In this document: one piece after another, positions 16,246-58,013 of the stretch
Layout: each line of letters starts with the position of its first letter
Numbering within the stretch: the stretch's first letter is position 1
Assembly (NCBI RefSeq): GCF_000332235.1
Contig: NZ_CM001775.1
Location: 1,952,230-2,016,229 of the forward strand
Reading direction: 5' to 3'
Source of the DNA: Geminocystis herdmanii PCC 6308
Lineage (GTDB): Bacteria; Cyanobacteriota; Cyanobacteriia; Cyanobacteriales; Cyanobacteriaceae
DNA: 64,000 nucleotides
Notes under the pieces: model-generated
What the model saw: only the letters and a program-made list of their open reading frames with translations
The model's database searches: none
Told to the model about the DNA's origin: nothing
Position numbers and translations under genes: made by a program

Positions 16246-17001
16246 GTGAATCCTAAGCGAATTATTAAAAGTCACATCAATTTTATCTCACTAATAGTTT
16301 GCACACTGATAATTGTTGTCAATTTTTCTATTTCCCTCAACGCAAAAGAAAGCAATTTACCCCCATTAAAAGTTCATCCCCTGCCCATAACCCTACAACA
16401 ATGGAAGGGAGAAACCCAAGATAATTACTTTAAAGAAATCCAACCTCACTTAGCAGGTTATCTAATTTGGTCACACTTTCCCATTAAAGTGTACATACAA
16501 ACTCCCGATGATAATTTATCCCCAGCAGGATTAACCCAATTTCAACAGTGGCAAAAAGCCGTTAGGATTTCGATCGAATCATGGAATCCTTATCTACCAT
16601 TAATAGAAATCGAAAAATCTGACAAAGCCGATATTCTCATCTATCGCCGTCATCCCCAAATCAAAGCGCAAATCAACCCCGAAACAGGATTATATAACCT
16701 TCCTAGAGCAAAAGCCGCAACCACCACCGTCAAATTCTATTTAACCCAAACACCACCAAAACAATTACGACACACCATGTCGATCGAAGTCAACCCCCAT
16801 CAAACCTTTGACTACCTAGTAACCAATATTACCCATGAATTAGGTCATGCACTAGGAATTTGGGGACATAGTTTAAACACAAACGATGTGATGTATCATT
16901 CTCACAGTCAAGAAATTCCTGCTATTTCACCCCAAGACATAAACACCCTAAAAAAAATTTATCAGCAACCCACCCGTTTAGGTTGGGTGCGACCCGTTTA
17001 A
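16246..17001 (+). CDS. Matrixin-like zinc metalloprotease; intron inserted at its last codons
   Basis: A 251-residue protein with GTG start, a hydrophobic signal segment (residues about 13-31) and the zinc site HELGHALGIWGHS (HExxHxxGxxH) followed by DVMYHS, the Met-turn. These are features of M10-type metallopeptidases. The last four codons (VRPV, stop) are intron sequence: the group II intron starts with GTGCG at 16987, directly after the Trp codon of LGW. If the intron is spliced, the reading frame continues into AATATTTAG and ends with Asn-Ile, so both forms differ by only a few residues. Confidence 0.85.
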   Translation: MNPKRIIKSHINFISLIVCTLIIVVNFSISLNAKESNLPPLKVHPLPITLQQWKGETQDNYFKEIQPHLAGYLIWSHFPIKVYIQTPDDNLSPAGLTQFQQWQKAVRISIESWNPYLPLIEIEKSDKADILIYRRHPQIKAQINPETGLYNLPRAKAATTTVKFYLTQTPPKQLRHTMSIEVNPHQTFDYLVTNITHELGHALGIWGHSLNTNDVMYHSHSQEIPAISPQDINTLKKIYQQPTRLGWVRPV

Positions 17002-17764
17002 TGTGAAGTTAGTCCCCAGTCGCAGGGGAATCGTTTAATAAAACGATGCCTAGAGCCTTCTCTAAGCCTATATAAACATTAGTTAGGTATAAAATGACCT
17101 GAAAGAAACTTAAACCCATTATGGGCGATTCTCGAAGGGCATCTACCAAGCAAGTACCTTGAAAGTTCATAATTAGAACATGAGTTGAAATACTCATTAA
17201 CATGGGAAAACAAGGTGATTGTTAAGGAATTGTTACAATTCCTGAAGCGGATTACCGTACCTTTAAGGTGTGGATAACCGTGAAGCAATTGTACCTAATA
17301 ACTCTATCTTTCTTGTAGGTGTGAATCCTACCCGTCATACCTGACGTGACAACACTAGCCCAGAGTGACTGGAGGTGGTATCTCCTACACTGAGTGCATG
17401 GGCAGAACGGGGGCAACACTGGTAGCCTTAACTGGTGTTCCTCCAGTAGTACAACTATGATTACAAAAGGAACTTTCGTTTGAACCATCGAAAGACGGAA
17501 CTAGCAAAATTAGGCTGACTAGCTAGACCAAAAGGTAACTTCTAATGTACCAGCAGGCTCTTGCCACCTGAACTGGAAGGTAATACATAGGACGGTGGAT
17601 AGAAAGAATCTAAGGTTGTGTAAAAAGAAAGTAAGAGAACGGGGAAACCCCCATGACCTCTCTTAATAAAGTCGATTATTAGGAGTAGTAACCAGCGTAA
17701 GGTTATGGGGAGTAAGATTGTTCAAAAAGCCAACGCCATTATGTAATGTAATAAATATGCTGAC

Positions 17765-19552
17765 GTGAACACTGCAACAAACAATGTATGGTCTTTAGTA
17801 ATAATAGAAATTATGAACTCTTTGAAGTATAAAGAAAACTTTTGGAATAAAATCGACTGGAAAACAGTAGAGAAGAAAGTTTTTAAGTTACAAAAAAGAA
17901 TATACAAAGCGAGTGCTAGTGGCAATGTCAAGCTGGTTCACAGTTTACAACGACTATTAACGAAATCCTACTACGGTAAATTACTTGCAACCAGAAGGGT
18001 AACTCAAGATAATCAGGGTAAAAAGACAGCAGGTGTGGACGGTGTTAAATCGCTGACCCCGAAGCAACGCCTTGATATGGTCAACAATCTGAAGTTAAAA
18101 GGGAAATGTAAACCCACTCGTAGGGTGAACATACCAAAACCAAACGGAGAAACCAGACCCCTTGGGATACCCTGCATGGAAGACAGAGCAAAACAAGCGT
18201 TAGTCAAATTGGCATTAGAACCCGAATGGGAAGCCAAATTTGAACCTAATAGCTATGGTTTTCGTCCTGCTAAGTCCTGTCAAGACGCAATAGGGGCAAT
18301 ATACACCAGCATTAACCAACAACCAAAATATGTATTGGATGCAGATATTGCTAAATGTTTTGACAGAATTGACCACGATAAATTACTTGCAAAACTAGAA
18401 ACATACCCACAATTAAGACGTGAAATCAAATCATGGCTAAAAAGTGGATACATGAACGGCAAAAACTTATTCCCTACTAAGGAAGGTACACCACAAGGGG
18501 GTGTAATATCCCCTCTATTGGCAAATATAGCCTTGCATGGGATGGAGTTAGAACTCAAAAAGTTTGCCAGTACATGGAAAGGCAAGAAAAGGAATATGAG
18601 TAATCTCAGCATAATCCGATATGCAGATGACTTTGTGATTCTTCACAAGGACATTGAGAAAATCATGGAATGTAAGGAGTTTATTGAGAAATGGTTGAGA
18701 GACTTAGGGCTGGAACTTAAACCAAGCAAAACCCGTATTTCCCATACTCTTAAAGAATATGAAGGAAATATAGGGTTTGACTTCTTAGGATTTAATATCC
18801 GACAATACGAAGTTGGGAAAACGCAATCTGGAAAAAGGTCAAATGGCAAACCTCTCGGATTCAAAACCCTCATCAAACCATCTAAAGAGAAGGTTAAACT
18901 CCACAGTAAAAAAATGGGAGAAATAATTGACAAACACAAGGCATCACCACAAGTAGCGTTAATAAAAGAACTTAATCCTGTAATCACAGGATGGGGAAAT
19001 TACTATCGCTCGGTATGCAGTAAGGAAACTTACAAGTCTTGTGACAACATAACTTACTCTCAATTAAAGAGATGGGCAGAAAGAAGACACCCCAAGAAAT
19101 CAAAATCATGGGTTAAAAACAGATATTGGCACACCGTAATAGAAGATAAAGGTGAAAACGGCATATCAATCAGAAATTGGGTCTTCAAAACAAAAGATGG
19201 ATTTGAATTAAAGGAACACGCCAAAATTGAAATCAATCGCCACACCAAAGTCAAGGGAGAAAAATCACCCTATGACGGAGATTGGATTTATTGGTCAAGT
19301 CGTAGAGGAGAACATCCTGATGTGACAATAAGAATGGCAACATTACTTAATAAACAGAAAGGTAAATGCAAACACTGTGGACTCAATTTTAAATATGAAG
19401 ACTTGCTAGAAATCGACCACATCATCCCGAAATCGCAAGGTGGAAAGGATGTGTATAAAAACCTACAAGTTTTACATAGACATTGCCATGACGAAAAGAC
19501 TAAGGAGGATTACCAGAAGTACCCAGAAATGGGGAAAAGAAACTATCACTAG
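17765..19552 (+). CDS. ltrA: Group II intron-encoded reverse transcriptase/maturase with HNH endonuclease domain
   Basis: About 595 residues if the GTG at 17765 is used; an ATG at 17813 (MNSLKYKENFW) gives a start nearer the conserved N-terminus. The RT domain has the YADD active site at residues 287-290 (SIIRYADDFVIL) and the GTPQGGVISPLL block. A maturase X domain follows (NPVITGWGNYYRSV). The C-terminal HNH domain has CKHCG, LEIDHIIPKSQGG and LHRHCH. The protein helps splice the intron and move it to new sites. It looks intact, although the host intron is disrupted in domain VI. Confidence 0.95.
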   Translation: MNTATNNVWSLVIIEIMNSLKYKENFWNKIDWKTVEKKVFKLQKRIYKASASGNVKLVHSLQRLLTKSYYGKLLATRRVTQDNQGKKTAGVDGVKSLTPKQRLDMVNNLKLKGKCKPTRRVNIPKPNGETRPLGIPCMEDRAKQALVKLALEPEWEAKFEPNSYGFRPAKSCQDAIGAIYTSINQQPKYVLDADIAKCFDRIDHDKLLAKLETYPQLRREIKSWLKSGYMNGKNLFPTKEGTPQGGVISPLLANIALHGMELELKKFASTWKGKKRNMSNLSIIRYADDFVILHKDIEKIMECKEFIEKWLRDLGLELKPSKTRISHTLKEYEGNIGFDFLGFNIRQYEVGKTQSGKRSNGKPLGFKTLIKPSKEKVKLHSKKMGEIIDKHKASPQVALIKELNPVITGWGNYYRSVCSKETYKSCDNITYSQLKRWAERRHPKKSKSWVKNRYWHTVIEDKGENGISIRNWVFKTKDGFELKEHAKIEINRHTKVKGEKSPYDGDWIYWSSRRGEHPDVTIRMATLLNKQKGKCKHCGLNFKYEDLLEIDHIIPKSQGGKDVYKNLQVLHRHCHDEKTKEDYQKYPEMGKRNYH

Positions 19553-19585
19553 ACTCGTATTCATGTAAAGAAGTTTGTTAGAGAG

Positions 19586-19646
19586 AAGCCGTGTGAGTGC
19601 GAAAGTCTCATGCACGGTTTTGAAGACAAGTGTAGGAGGTGACTCC
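19586..19646 (+). ncRNA. Group II intron domain V and 5' half of domain VI
   Basis: Domain V: AGCCGTGTGAG at 19587 onward pairs with CTCATGCACGG near 19607, capped by GAAA. The catalytic triad AGC is at 19587-19589. It is followed by GACAAGTGTAGGAG, the 5' arm of domain VI, whose loop GTGA and CTCC complete a small hairpin ending at 19646. The matching 3' arm (CTCCTATGCTT) is found only after the inserted element, at 21324 onward. Confidence 0.8.
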
Positions 19647-21315
19647 AGCCCTTTCAATGCGTACAGGAATACTAAAATGAAGGACTCTGATAGACTAAAT
19701 TATAAATTATCTATTCAGAGGATGTAGCTGATGTTATCTAATATTTTAGAAAAGTTTGTTAAAGATAGTCCCATTACCGTTATGGTACAAGTTTTAATGA
19801 CCAAAATTTTTGCACCCGATAATATTGACTATCTCTTTGAAAAATATGCACAACGTCAATACCAACAAGATTTATTTTTCTCCTCGGTAGTGGATTTAAT
19901 GAGTACTGTTGTATGTGGGATTTATCCTTCTGTGAATGCTGCTTACCGAGCCAAAGCCGAAACACTGACGGTATCAACTACTGCATTATATAATAAACTT
20001 CAAGGAGTTGAAATCGAAGTCAGTCAAGGATTATTAGCCGAAACAGCAAAACAATTACAAGGTTTATGCTACCATTTGGGAGATGCTGGTGAATCAATGT
20101 TACCTGGTTATGAAATTAGAATCGCAGATGGTAGTTGTTTGGCTAGTACTGAACATCGCCTCAAACCCACTCGTGAGTCAACGGCCGCCCCCTTACCGGG
20201 TAAAGCCATTGTAATATTTGACCCCACCTCAAAACTGGTATTGGATATTTTATGTGAACAGGATGCCTATACTCAAGAAAGAGCATTGTTTCCGTCACTT
20301 TTAGATAAAGTTCAAGCAAAACAAGTATGGATTGCGGATCGTAATTTTTGTACAGCTCATTTTTTAACTGCCATTGATCAAAAAGAAGCATTTTTTGTGA
20401 TTAGAGAACACAAATCCCTTCCTACAGAGGAAGTTGGTTTATTAAAATCCCTCGGTGAAATCAACAGTGGTAAATTATTTTCGCAAATGATTTACTTTAA
20501 TTTTGAGGGGAGAGTAGTTTCTGTTCGTCGTATTGTATTACATTTAAGTAAGGCGACACGGGATGGGGAAAAAGAAATAAGTATTTTGACTAATTTACCT
20601 TTAGAAATAGGGGAAGAAAAAATAGCTCAGATGTATCAACGTCGTTGGAATATAGAAACATTATTTCAAACAGTGACTAAAAATTTTCATGGAGAAATCA
20701 AAACTTTGGCTTATCCCAAAGCTGCTCTATTTTCCTATTCCATGGCACTGGTGACATATAATATTCTCGCCACCATAAAAAATATCTTATCTGTGGTTCA
20801 TGGTTGGGGAAAAATTGAAATGGGGATTTCTGATTATTATTTAGTCAATGAAATACAAGGTACATATAGAGGAATGATCATTGGTGTACCCGAAGATGAT
20901 TGGGCATGGATTAGTCAATTTGATGACGATGAAATGGTGGAATGGTTAAAGTCTTTAGCCCACAATGTTCGTTTGAAATATTTTTGTAAAACTGTTCGTG
21001 GACAAAAAAAACCAAAAGCGAAGTTAAAAAATAATCCTCAACGTCCTCATGTTTCCACCGCCAGATTACTAAAAGAGAATTAATGAATTTCTTTAATACA
21101 ACTGAATAATTAATAAAACAGGATTTTTCTCAAAGATAGAACAAATCTGATAGTTAATTATGTTTATTTACGGGAAAAATAACTCTCATCGATGATATTC
21201 TGAGGATAATTTCTTAAAGTAAGTCCATAAAGCATTGTTAAAAGCGTTATTGGGCATTTACATACATTTTTTGACCTTCATTTTTAACATTACAAATTAA
21301 CACATTGAAAGGGCT
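19647..21315 (+). mobile_element. IS4-family insertion sequence, complete, with 12-bp target duplication
   Basis: A 1669-bp element. Terminal inverted repeats are AGCCCTTTCAATG at 19647-19659 and CATTGAAAGGGCT at 21303-21315 (13 of 13). The flanking direct repeats GGAGGTGACTCC at 19635-19646 and 21316-21327 are identical and 12 bp long, in the range expected for the IS4 family. One transposase gene fills most of the element. The perfect ends and duplication suggest recent insertion. A decayed fragment of a related element is at 40788-41236. Confidence 0.92.
19731..21083 (+). CDS. IS4-family transposase
   Basis: A 450-residue DDE transposase. The acidic residues are Asp133 (IADGSC), Asp203 (WIADRNF) and Glu309 in the family motif YQRRWNIETLFQTVTK (Y-R-E-K type signature). 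It looks full length without frameshift, so the element could still be active. A GAGG-type ribosome-binding sequence (CAGAGGATG) lies about 12 bases before the ATG. The C-terminus is basic (KKPKAKLKNNPQRPH), as is common for these enzymes. Confidence 0.94.
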   Translation: MLSNILEKFVKDSPITVMVQVLMTKIFAPDNIDYLFEKYAQRQYQQDLFFSSVVDLMSTVVCGIYPSVNAAYRAKAETLTVSTTALYNKLQGVEIEVSQGLLAETAKQLQGLCYHLGDAGESMLPGYEIRIADGSCLASTEHRLKPTRESTAAPLPGKAIVIFDPTSKLVLDILCEQDAYTQERALFPSLLDKVQAKQVWIADRNFCTAHFLTAIDQKEAFFVIREHKSLPTEEVGLLKSLGEINSGKLFSQMIYFNFEGRVVSVRRIVLHLSKATRDGEKEISILTNLPLEIGEEKIAQMYQRRWNIETLFQTVTKNFHGEIKTLAYPKAALFSYSMALVTYNILATIKNILSVVHGWGKIEMGISDYYLVNEIQGTYRGMIIGVPEDDWAWISQFDDDEMVEWLKSLAHNVRLKYFCKTVRGQKKPKAKLKNNPQRPHVSTARLLKEN

Positions 21316-21410
21316 GGAGGTGACTCCTATGCTTAGTTTAATAATATTTAGCAAAGAAAAATTATTGTAGGGAAGACTATACCTAGTTTGTATAAATACT
21401 TACAATTAAT

Positions 21411-40787: not shown

Positions 40788-40840
40788 TATACAGGAATGC
40801 GAAAATGAAAGATTCTGATAGACTAGATTATAAATTATCT
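40788..40840 (+). mobile_element. Remnant of an IS4-type element, left part
   Basis: TACAGGAATGCGAAAATGAA and the following bases to ATTATCT match the start of the intact IS4 element at 19661-19710 (TACAGGAATACTAAAATGAA). The terminal AGCCCTTTCAATG of that element is missing here, and repeat copies A2 and B2 bound the fragment. Confidence 0.65.
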
Positions 40841-41193
40841 AGGGTTTGCTGAATAAGTCAGAAAACTATAAAAATCAAAGGTTTAGACATAATACATTCA
40901 CCAAAAAGTGTGCAGTTTTAAGGATTTTTATTCAAAAATTCAACACTTTTAACCTTATTTTTTAAAATACAACTATACTCATTCTATCTATTATACTCAT
41001 CAAGGTTATAATCTGATGTTGCAAAATGTACAGTTGCCTTTTGCCTACTTGCCTTTTGCCTACCTTCACCAAACTCAAGTTATACCCTCGCCAAGTATAA
41101 CAGCATCAAAACCTTGATGTTTCAGTATTTCTCCTATCTCCTGTCTCCTAACTCCTATCTCCCTAATCGATAAAGACTATGAGGCAAACCCTA
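40841..41193 (+). mobile_element. Repeat family B, copy 2, inside the IS4 remnant
   Basis: About 353 bp with ends AGGGTTTGC and GCAAACCCT; with flanking bases they form CTAGGGTTTGC...GCAAACCCTAG. It splits the IS4 fragment: the sequence before it and the sequence after it correspond to neighbouring parts of the intact element (19710 and 19731). It is about 100 bp longer than copy B1 because of an internal segment with CTTTTGCCTA repeats. Confidence 0.7.
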
Positions 41194-41194
41194 G

Positions 41195-41236
41195 TTAATG
41201 TTATCGAATATCTTAGAAAAATTTGTTTAAGACAAT
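41195..41236 (+). mobile_element. Remnant of the same IS4-type element, start of transposase
   Basis: ATGTTATCGAATATCTTAG and following bases match the first codons of the intact transposase (19731: ATGTTATCTAATATTTTAG). Similarity is lost where the RNase gene stop codon begins, so the remainder of the transposase has been deleted. Confidence 0.65.
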
Positions 41237-56273: not shown

Positions 56274-58013
56274 ATGAGTTATTTTATGGATAGACGAGCC
56301 TATGCTGAAACCTATGGAGTGACAAAGGGCGATCGAATTAGACTAGCAGACACAGAATTAATTATTGAAGTAGAGAGAGATTACACCGTTTACGGCGATG
56401 AAGTAAAATTTGGTGGTGGTAAAGTAATTCGAGATGGTATGGGGCAATCAGGCATTTCAAGGGCAGATGGTGCAGTGGATACGGTGATTACTAACGCTTT
56501 AATTCTCGATTGGTGGGGTATTGTTAAAGCCGATGTGGGCATTAAAGACGGCAAAATTTTCAAAATTGGCAAAGCAGGAAACCCGCAAATTCAACCTAAT
56601 GTGGATATTATCATCGGTGCAGTAACAGAAGTTATCGCAGGAGAGGGGATGATTTTAACCGCTGGAGGCATTGATACCCATATCCATTTTATCTGCCCTC
56701 AACAAATCGAAACCGCCCTTGCTTCTGGAATTACAACTATGATTGGTGGTGGTACAGGACCAGCTACAGGCACAAATGCCACAACTTGCACCCCCGGAGA
56801 GTGGCATCTCTATCGAATGTTAGAATCTGCTGACGCTTTTGCCATGAATTTGGGCTTTTTAGGTAAGGGTAACAGTAGCCAACCAGAGGGGTTAATTGAG
56901 CAAGTCAAGGCAGGTGCTATGGGGTTAAAACTCCATGAGGATTGGGGTACAACCCCTTGGAGTATCGACACTTGTTTAACTATTGCTGATAAATATGATG
57001 TGCAAGTAGCCATTCACACTGACACCCTTAACGAAGCGGGTTTTGTGGAAGACACCATCAATGCTTTTAAAAACAGGGTTATTCATACCTATCATACGGA
57101 AGGGGCTGGAGGTGGACACGCACCAGATATTATTAAGGTATGTGGGCAAATGAATGTTTTACCCTCCTCGACAAATCCCACTCGCCCTTATACTATGAAT
57201 ACCTTAGAAGAACACTTAGATATGTTGATGGTGTGTCATCATCTCGATCGAGGTATTCCCGAAGATGTGGCTTTTGCTGAGTCACGCATTCGCCGTGAAA
57301 CCATCGCCGCCGAAGATATTTTGCACGATTTAGGCGCTTTTAGTATGATTGCTTCTGATTCCCAAGCTATGGGAAGGGTAGGAGAAACTATTATTCGTAC
57401 TTGGCAAACTGCCCACAAAATGAAGGTACAAAGAGGACATTTGATCCCCCCCTCCCCCTTCAATAAGGGAGAGATTGATTTTAATACTACCAACGATAAT
57501 TTTCGGGCAAAACGCTACATTGCCAAATATACCATTAACCCTGCTATAACCCATGGTATCGCTGATCATGTGGGTTCGATCGAACAAGGTAAATTAGCGG
57601 ATTTAGTGTTGTGGAAACCTGCCTTTTTTGGGGTTAAACCAGAATTAGTAATTAAGGGAGGAATGATTGCCTATGCCCAAATGGGAGACGCTAACGCTAG
57701 TATTCCTACCCCTCAACCAAGGCACTCTCAACCAATGTTCGGGAGTTTTGGAGGTTCGATCACAACTACCAGTTTAACCTTTGTTTCTCAGGCTTCTTTG
57801 GAGTTAGATATTAAAGGTAAATTAGGCTTAAGAAAACCCACTATTGCCGTTAAAAATACCCGTAATTTGAGTAAAGCTGATATGAAGTTAAATGATTATG
57901 CACCTTTTATGGAAGTCGATGCAGAAACCTATGAAGTACGAGCCGATGGACAACTTTTAACCTGCGAACCTGCGAATATATTGCCTATGGCACAACGTTA
58001 TTTCTTATTTTAA
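56274..58013 (+). CDS. ureC: Urease alpha subunit, with in-frame insertion
   Basis: About 579 residues from ATG 56274 ([15 protein letters not shown]); another ATG lies two codons before. Catalytic subunit of nickel urease: nickel ligands HIHF (GGIDTHIHF) and the carbamylated lysine in GLKLHEDWG, histidine cluster with VAIHTDTL and [14 protein letters not shown], and the MVCHHLD flap. Between KMKVQRG and [10 protein letters not shown] the protein has an extra segment [15 protein letters not shown] (about residues 391-405) encoded by a C-rich/G-rich palindrome (57444-57475). Other urease genes are not adjacent, as usual in cyanobacteria. Confidence 0.95.

Follow-up and report, generated by a model that had tools for sequence, protein, structure and literature searches.

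Host Gene and Group II Intron

The window (the whole stretch of 64,000 nucleotides from Geminocystis herdmanii PCC 6308 that was analyzed) contains a gene for an M10-peptidase-like protein that is interrupted by a group II intron, and this intron carries a nested insertion sequence (IS), all of them on the plus strand. The 5' exon of the gene (16246–16986; PF00413, Pfam E value 5.3e-6) is followed by the intron with its nested IS (16987–21342), which starts with GTGCG and ends with TTTAAT, and then by a 3' exon whose first bases, AATATTTAG (21343–21351), would encode Asn-Ile-stop once spliced. The host gene was matched in all four of the other genomes of this genus that were searched and all four orthologues are without the intron. 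The empty allele of a relative from the same genus (L083) reads GGTTGG^AATATTTGA at the exon junction, which is matched by the start of the 3' exon, and this junction fixes the bounds of the intron at 16987–21342, in agreement with the splice sites (16986|21343) given in an earlier note made from the sequence. The termini of the intron, GTGCG at 16987 and AT at 21341–21342, also follow the 5' GUGYG/3' AY rule. As the intron is located two sense codons ahead of the stop codon of the host gene, the protein ends in ...GWVRPV* when the frame enters the intron in the unspliced message versus ...GWNI*, as in L083, in the spliced one; hence, splicing alters just the last few residues. The C-termini of the four orthologues are WQQ*, WNI*, WDIN*, and WNIN*.

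The intron contains an open frame of 595 aa (17765–19552, plus strand) for an intron-encoded protein (IEP) with RVT_1, RVT_N, GIIM, and HNH domains, which is identified as a reverse transcriptase/maturase by the model TIGR04416 (345.3 bits versus a cut-off of 300) as well as by GIIM and HNH. The closest intron that was found, L052, has an IEP that is 83% identical and whose frame contains a single stop codon, and its DNA is 82% identical to that of the window intron over 2585 alignment columns, domains I–III being compared by this alignment. Inspection by eye of the EBS/IBS pairing gave no convincing result. An uninterrupted copy of the intron elsewhere in the genome, which the earlier note had envisaged as a comparison, was not found; the search recovered nine other matches (69–85% identical), all of partial length.

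The composite of intron and IS ends ~470 nt upstream of a 16S rRNA gene (21809), with the transposase of the IS pointing toward the rRNA operon. Farther along the window, on the minus strand (56430–56715), there is a match of 126.8 bits to the Rfam family 5_ureB_sRNA, which may reflect only similarity to ureB coding sequence on the opposite strand.

Domains V and VI and the Inserted Element

Domain V (19583–19624, plus strand) is clear, although its scores are just under the Rfam gathering thresholds for both models, viz. RF04357 (47.5 bits, E value 9.6e-9; gathering score 53) and RF00029 (36.4 bits; gathering score 40). It is followed by the 5' arm of domain VI, AAGTGTAGGAG (19628–19638), whose 3' counterpart, CTCCTATGCTT (21324–21334), lies on the other side of the IS. 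The adenosine that follows this arm, A21335, is seven nt ahead of the last base of the intron, is predicted to be unpaired and occupies the same position in L052, and it is the candidate branch point. In L052, the same hairpin of 11 bp, GTGA, and 11 bp is uninterrupted. To compare this domain more widely, 32 rows were assembled, comprising the window without the element and 31 intron relatives, of which 29 were loci from the search for relatives (window excluded) and two (L011 and L012) came from the genome of the window, whose other matches were not used. An uninterrupted, GNRA-capped hairpin is present in all 31 of these related introns. At least 8 of the 11 positions form standard pairs in 30 of the 32 rows (L058 and L060 have 6/11 in the register used), a count biased toward high pairing as the best-pairing GNRA loop was chosen for each row. 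Among the 30 rows, each of the 11 pairs is represented by 2 to 6 types of standard pairs. Due to the presence in relatives of this hairpin with varied standard pairs, the sequence comparison confirms 19624–19646 and 21316–21342 as the two halves of domain VI, split by the element at the centre of the tetraloop. The interpretation in the earlier note of the duplicated sequence as the hairpin tip of domain VI is upheld by the uninterrupted hairpin of L052 and by the pairs in the 30 rows, and both arms and the putative branch adenosine are retained, as it had stated, on the evidence of the sequence, of L052 and of the predicted fold.

The inserted element is 1.67 kb in length and occupies 19647–21315 if its ends are read from AGCCC or 19646–21316 if they are read from CAGCCC. 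Its terminal inverted repeats, AGCCCTTTCAATG on the left (19647–19659) and CATTGAAAGGGCT on the right (21303–21315), are perfect over 13 bp. The element is flanked by two copies of the target GGAGGTGACTCC, placed at 19635–19646 and 21316–21327 in a 12-bp reading or at 19636–19645 and 21317–21326 in a 10-bp reading. Both the 13-bp inverted ends and the duplication reported in the earlier note were recovered, but the 12-bp length assigned there to the duplication is not unique. With a target that reads GG..CC next to an element that starts with (C)AGCCC, duplications of 12, 10, and 8 bp are equally perfect, and each end of the element can be placed only to within two bases. The element is complete, its transposase frame is open and its target duplication is exact, and the insertion is thus more than a chance pattern. 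Based upon the exact duplications and the open frame, the insertion looks recent. A chimeric contig is exceedingly improbable as the origin of this arrangement: nothing specific points to such an artefact apart from the junction being of single copy, and against it the genome is assembled as a single contig of 4.26 Mb with 99.98% completeness, the target duplication is exact and the exon is continuous on both sides.

The element of the window is the only full copy in its genome, the seven further matches being fragments. A remnant of the same IS lies in the window at 40790–41232 and consists of element positions 16–67 and about 79–119. Its two parts are separated by ~350 nt of inserted sequence, which has the inverted ends AGGGTTTGC...GCAAACCCT, is flanked on each side by CTAG and for which no ORF of at least 60 aa is listed; this insert is MITE-like, and the IS around it is dead.

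Relationship of the Element to the IS4 Family

The element encodes a DDE transposase of 450 aa (19731–21083; PF01609, E value 8.4e-14) in an open frame on the same strand as the intron. The IS4 family is defined by the spacing D(60-110)D(100-150)E, the signature Y(2)R(3)E(6)K, a single ORF, and a target duplication of about one helix turn (PMC2266710). The residues D133, D203, and E309 of the transposase are invariant in the 12 aligned proteins and their spacers of 69 and 105 residues fall within the IS4 ranges; the transposase is encoded by a single ORF, and a duplication of 8, 10, or 12 bp corresponds to about one helix turn. However, the YREK signature is incomplete: Y302, R305, and E309 are present, whereas the lysine position is occupied by a threonine (T316), which is invariant in the 12 aligned proteins. 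Moreover, the score against the NCBIfam model for IS4 family transposases, NF033592 (112.2 bits), is just under its curated cut-off of 115. The designation "IS4-family" in the earlier note is therefore apt for the DDE spacing, the single ORF and the duplication but not for the YREK lysine and the NCBIfam score and, since on these two counts the sequence formally falls short of membership, we refer to the element as IS4-like rather than as a member of this family.

Relatives of the Element and Their Target Sites

Relatives of the transposase were detected in 41 of 388 genomes from the order to which the window belongs (E value of 1e-30 or less). A first scan with the single transposase as query found no relative among 17 stretches; with an alignment as query, 260 of 288 stretches were related, and the best 80 of these 260, together with the window, gave 81 loci. 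The ends were not resolved in 36 of these loci, two (L107 and L122) had an inexact duplication and 43 an exact one. The sites tested, 46 in number, were the 43 exact ones plus L115, L118, and L200. From 20 additional stretches, only L088 and L102 entered the comparison of sites, and no separate row resulted from either of them.

The duplications range from 9 to 14 bp across the 46 sites and are of 10–12 bp at 35 of them besides that of the window. Relatives with other ends have duplications of 10–12 bp at 35 of 36 sites, and those in the group read from AGCCC are mostly of 14 bp, which fall in line if the start of the element is taken one base earlier. For the subgroup IS4Sa, ends of the form CA------T and a duplication of 8–10 bp are given (PMC2266710). 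The ends CAGCCCTTT with a 10-bp duplication fit this definition, and AGCCC with 12 bp is equally perfect as a reading. Based upon the duplication lengths in the relatives and the IS4Sa definition, we favour CAGCCC ends with a 10-bp duplication.

The relatives with nearly the same ends as the window element (AGCCCTTTCAAYG) often sit in palindromes. In Calothrix sp. PCC 7103, where 12 full-length copies were considered out of 23 matches (eight near-identical, at 100%, and four at 88–89%; partial copies excluded), the half-site GTGGGCANTGCC of a GGTGGGCANTGCCCACC-type palindrome is present at one or both ends in 10 copies, viz. at both ends in six and at one end only in four, and at neither end in two. 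Beyond 200 nt from these copies, their flanks contain no such half-site in 31,200 nt. Two related copies in this strain (L186 and L192) have the same sequence, GGCTATAGTACACC, beside their opposite ends, an exchange of flanks which suggests a rearrangement between IS copies.

The palindromic character of the targets was also assessed by a dyad test, which ignores G-T pairs and any hairpin beyond eight to ten positions. As a version with the centre fixed understated the sites that are off-centre, the test was also run with a shift of the centre. By the latter, at least 7 of 8 pairs are complementary at 5 of the 10 sites of the same-ends group, a level reached by 2.1% of the 1,274 control positions (p of ~1e-6). 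Three of these 10 sites lack site-specific controls, and L151 and L200, which are among the five high scorers, resemble each other in their right flanks and may be non-independent. Within a second group, with TAGCCCTGTCAAGG ends, two of four sites reach 7/8 pairs. No preference for palindromes was seen in the relatives with other ends (0 of 32 sites in the test with shift). The site in the window scores 6/8, a value reached by 14.3% of its 182 controls when the centre may shift and by 0.8% of the controls of the group when the centre is fixed on the duplication.

The genome of the window contains 63 exact copies of GGTGGGCANTGCCCACC and none of the reversed pattern, and none of these 63 copies is inside the window. 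Three genomes with related elements have 39, 11, and 31 copies of GGTGGGCANTGCCCACC. The copies of the related element in Calothrix parasitica lie outside GGTGGGCANTGCCCACC repeats, and the left flanks of two decayed copies in the genome of the window are non-palindromic. Several of the target sites are preceded by GTAG or GTAA. A specialization of this lineage in group II introns was also considered and is not supported: a domain V pattern that matched the window and all 31 of 31 intron loci, when scanned within 900 nt of the transposase frame, was found near the element only in the window out of the 81 loci.

Insertion into Domain VI

The earlier note gave no reason for the place of the insertion, and the preference for palindromes of the nearest relatives probably offers one. 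Since these relatives favour palindromes and the DNA of domain VI is itself palindromic (GTAGGAG-GTGA-CTCCTAT), we consider it likely that a palindrome-favouring, IS4-like element inserted at the dyad of the hairpin for this reason, although the role of palindromy in this particular insertion is deduced from the sequences of relatives. According to this proposal, an IS4-like element moving by cut-and-paste, whose closest relatives prefer palindromes as targets (in Calothrix sp. PCC 7103, mostly the dispersed repeat GGTGGGCANTGCCCACC), took domain VI, a palindrome in DNA and RNA alike, as a substitute target and inserted at its dyad centre. The hairpin is split at its tip alone, with both arms and the candidate branch adenosine left in place, and its GNRA cap becomes a GTGA/GTGA internal loop. 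The stem can be extended by pairing between the inverted ends of the element, with the transposase frame wholly within the loop. The insertion was probably tolerated through the position of the intron near the stop of the host gene: as the intron is only two sense codons before the stop, the unspliced mRNA would still encode nearly the whole protein.

Against targeting by palindromy stands the observation that the only full copy in this genome lies outside its 63 GGTGGGCANTGCCCACC repeats. The element may instead have little target preference and have hit domain VI at random, like any other dispensable intron DNA. Such a chance insertion would accord with the presence of a single full copy in the genome, with the absence of a palindrome preference in the relatives with other ends, and with a dyad score for the window that is unexceptional once the centre may shift. 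However, the duplication is centred exactly on the dyad of the hairpin and the nearest relatives show a preference for palindromes (10 of 12 copies in PCC 7103; 5 of 10 sites versus 2.1% of controls), and we regard a random hit as unlikely. Targeting of the hairpin for its palindromic DNA is the explanation that we prefer.

Predicted Pairing of Domain VI and the Fate of Splicing

When the region 19583–21342 was folded, all 11 outer pairs of domain VI were predicted, with probabilities of 0.94–1.0, the ends of the element were paired with each other and A21335 was unpaired. The proposal in the earlier note that the outer arms could still pair across the element is borne out by this full-length fold, though shuffled inserts do likewise: at least 9 of the 11 pairs were kept in 80 of 80 controls. 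A need for the inverted ends of the element in holding the arms together found no support in these folds, as 11/11 pairs were kept in 40 of 40 shuffles of the interior and 9–11 pairs in 40 of 40 shuffles of the whole element. Because the shuffled controls pair as well, with or without the element ends, the fold gives no evidence of splicing. The intact arms likewise say little about it, since the insertion looks recent and pairing of the arms is predicted irrespective of the intervening sequence. As the transposase frame (19731–21083) is inside the loop, its translation would probably not have to melt the stem.

We consider it somewhat more probable than not that the intron is dead, the 1.67-kb insert blocking either the docking of domain VI or the second step, so that the host gene would be expressed only in its unspliced form, ending in WVRPV*. 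The loss of the conserved cap is consistent with this possibility, and selection for splicing may be weak as the unspliced protein is nearly full length; however, neither the IEP nor the regions compared with those of L052 showed any decay. Persistence of splicing is possible but somewhat doubtful. In this case the composite of intron and IS would splice and maybe also move: the arms would pair again and the IS, contained in a giant loop, would leave with the intron RNA and be silent for the host. The open IEP frame, the presence of domain V and the branch region, and the arm pairs of 0.94 to 1.0 in the full-length fold, in which the ends of the element are also paired, are in accordance with such a course. 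Against it, the fold does not discriminate between the element and shuffled inserts (80 of 80 keeping at least 9/11 pairs), the intron has lost the GNRA cap that all 31 of the relatives possess, and the intactness of the parts may merely reflect a recent insertion. In some group II introns, such caps take part in tertiary contacts. A broader idea, that RNA hairpins serve as safe landing sites for palindrome-targeting transposons, strikes us as rather unlikely: the duplicated palindrome and the complementary ends of the element would rebuild the stem around the insert, the intron would splice and the IS would leave the mRNA unseen by the host gene.

The locus is a natural experiment on the amount of additional sequence that a group II intron can accommodate in its branch-point domain. 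Should splicing persist, a cargo of kilobase size could be carried by domain VI; should it be lost, the locus shows such introns in the course of dying. It also suggests a route by which a preference for dispersed DNA palindromes can steer an element into a catalytic RNA. The palindrome-targeting lineage in cyanobacteria may be the more general result.

Comparison with Known Systems

In the part of the literature that was covered, the titles and abstract openings yielded no mention of an IS in domain VI. Group II introns that contain an insertion sequence have been described before, and so have IS4-type elements that lie in palindromic repeats. For the latter, ISRm22 of Sinorhizobium meliloti, an IS4 family element, is reported from nine copies in REP palindromes, and six copies with identical direct repeats place its insertion point at the axis of palindromy (PMC1525189); it has been assigned to the subgroup IS4Sa (PMC2266710). 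The element of the window resembles ISRm22, as the latter is described, in being of IS4 type with a palindromic target, but its target is domain VI of a ribozyme rather than a REP and it is without the YREK lysine. GTAG-tagged REPs, as described in PMC3733652, are dispersed short palindromes with families in cyanobacteria included, and the targets of the present lineage are similar in this regard, with several sites preceded by GTAG or GTAA. By this description, GGTGGGCANTGCCCACC may be a GTAG-tagged REP.

With regard to nested elements, TeI4g::ISEL2f of Thermosynechococcus elongatus, in which an insertion element interrupts the ORF of a group II intron (PMC2882425), is likewise a nested insertion element in a cyanobacterial group II intron; in that intron the ORF was hit, whereas in the window the element is in domain VI and the ORF is open. 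The twintron T.e.I7/T.e.I8 of Trichodesmium has an inner intron in domain I that splices itself out (PMC4649490), and twintrons are also described in PMC4424553. The Trichodesmium twintron shares with the window the nesting of one mobile element within another, inside a cyanobacterial protein-coding gene. However, its inner element is a self-splicing intron, whereas the IS of the window cannot by itself leave at the RNA level. The locus described here is a new example in which known kinds of elements meet at an instructive place, with an IS located in domain VI.
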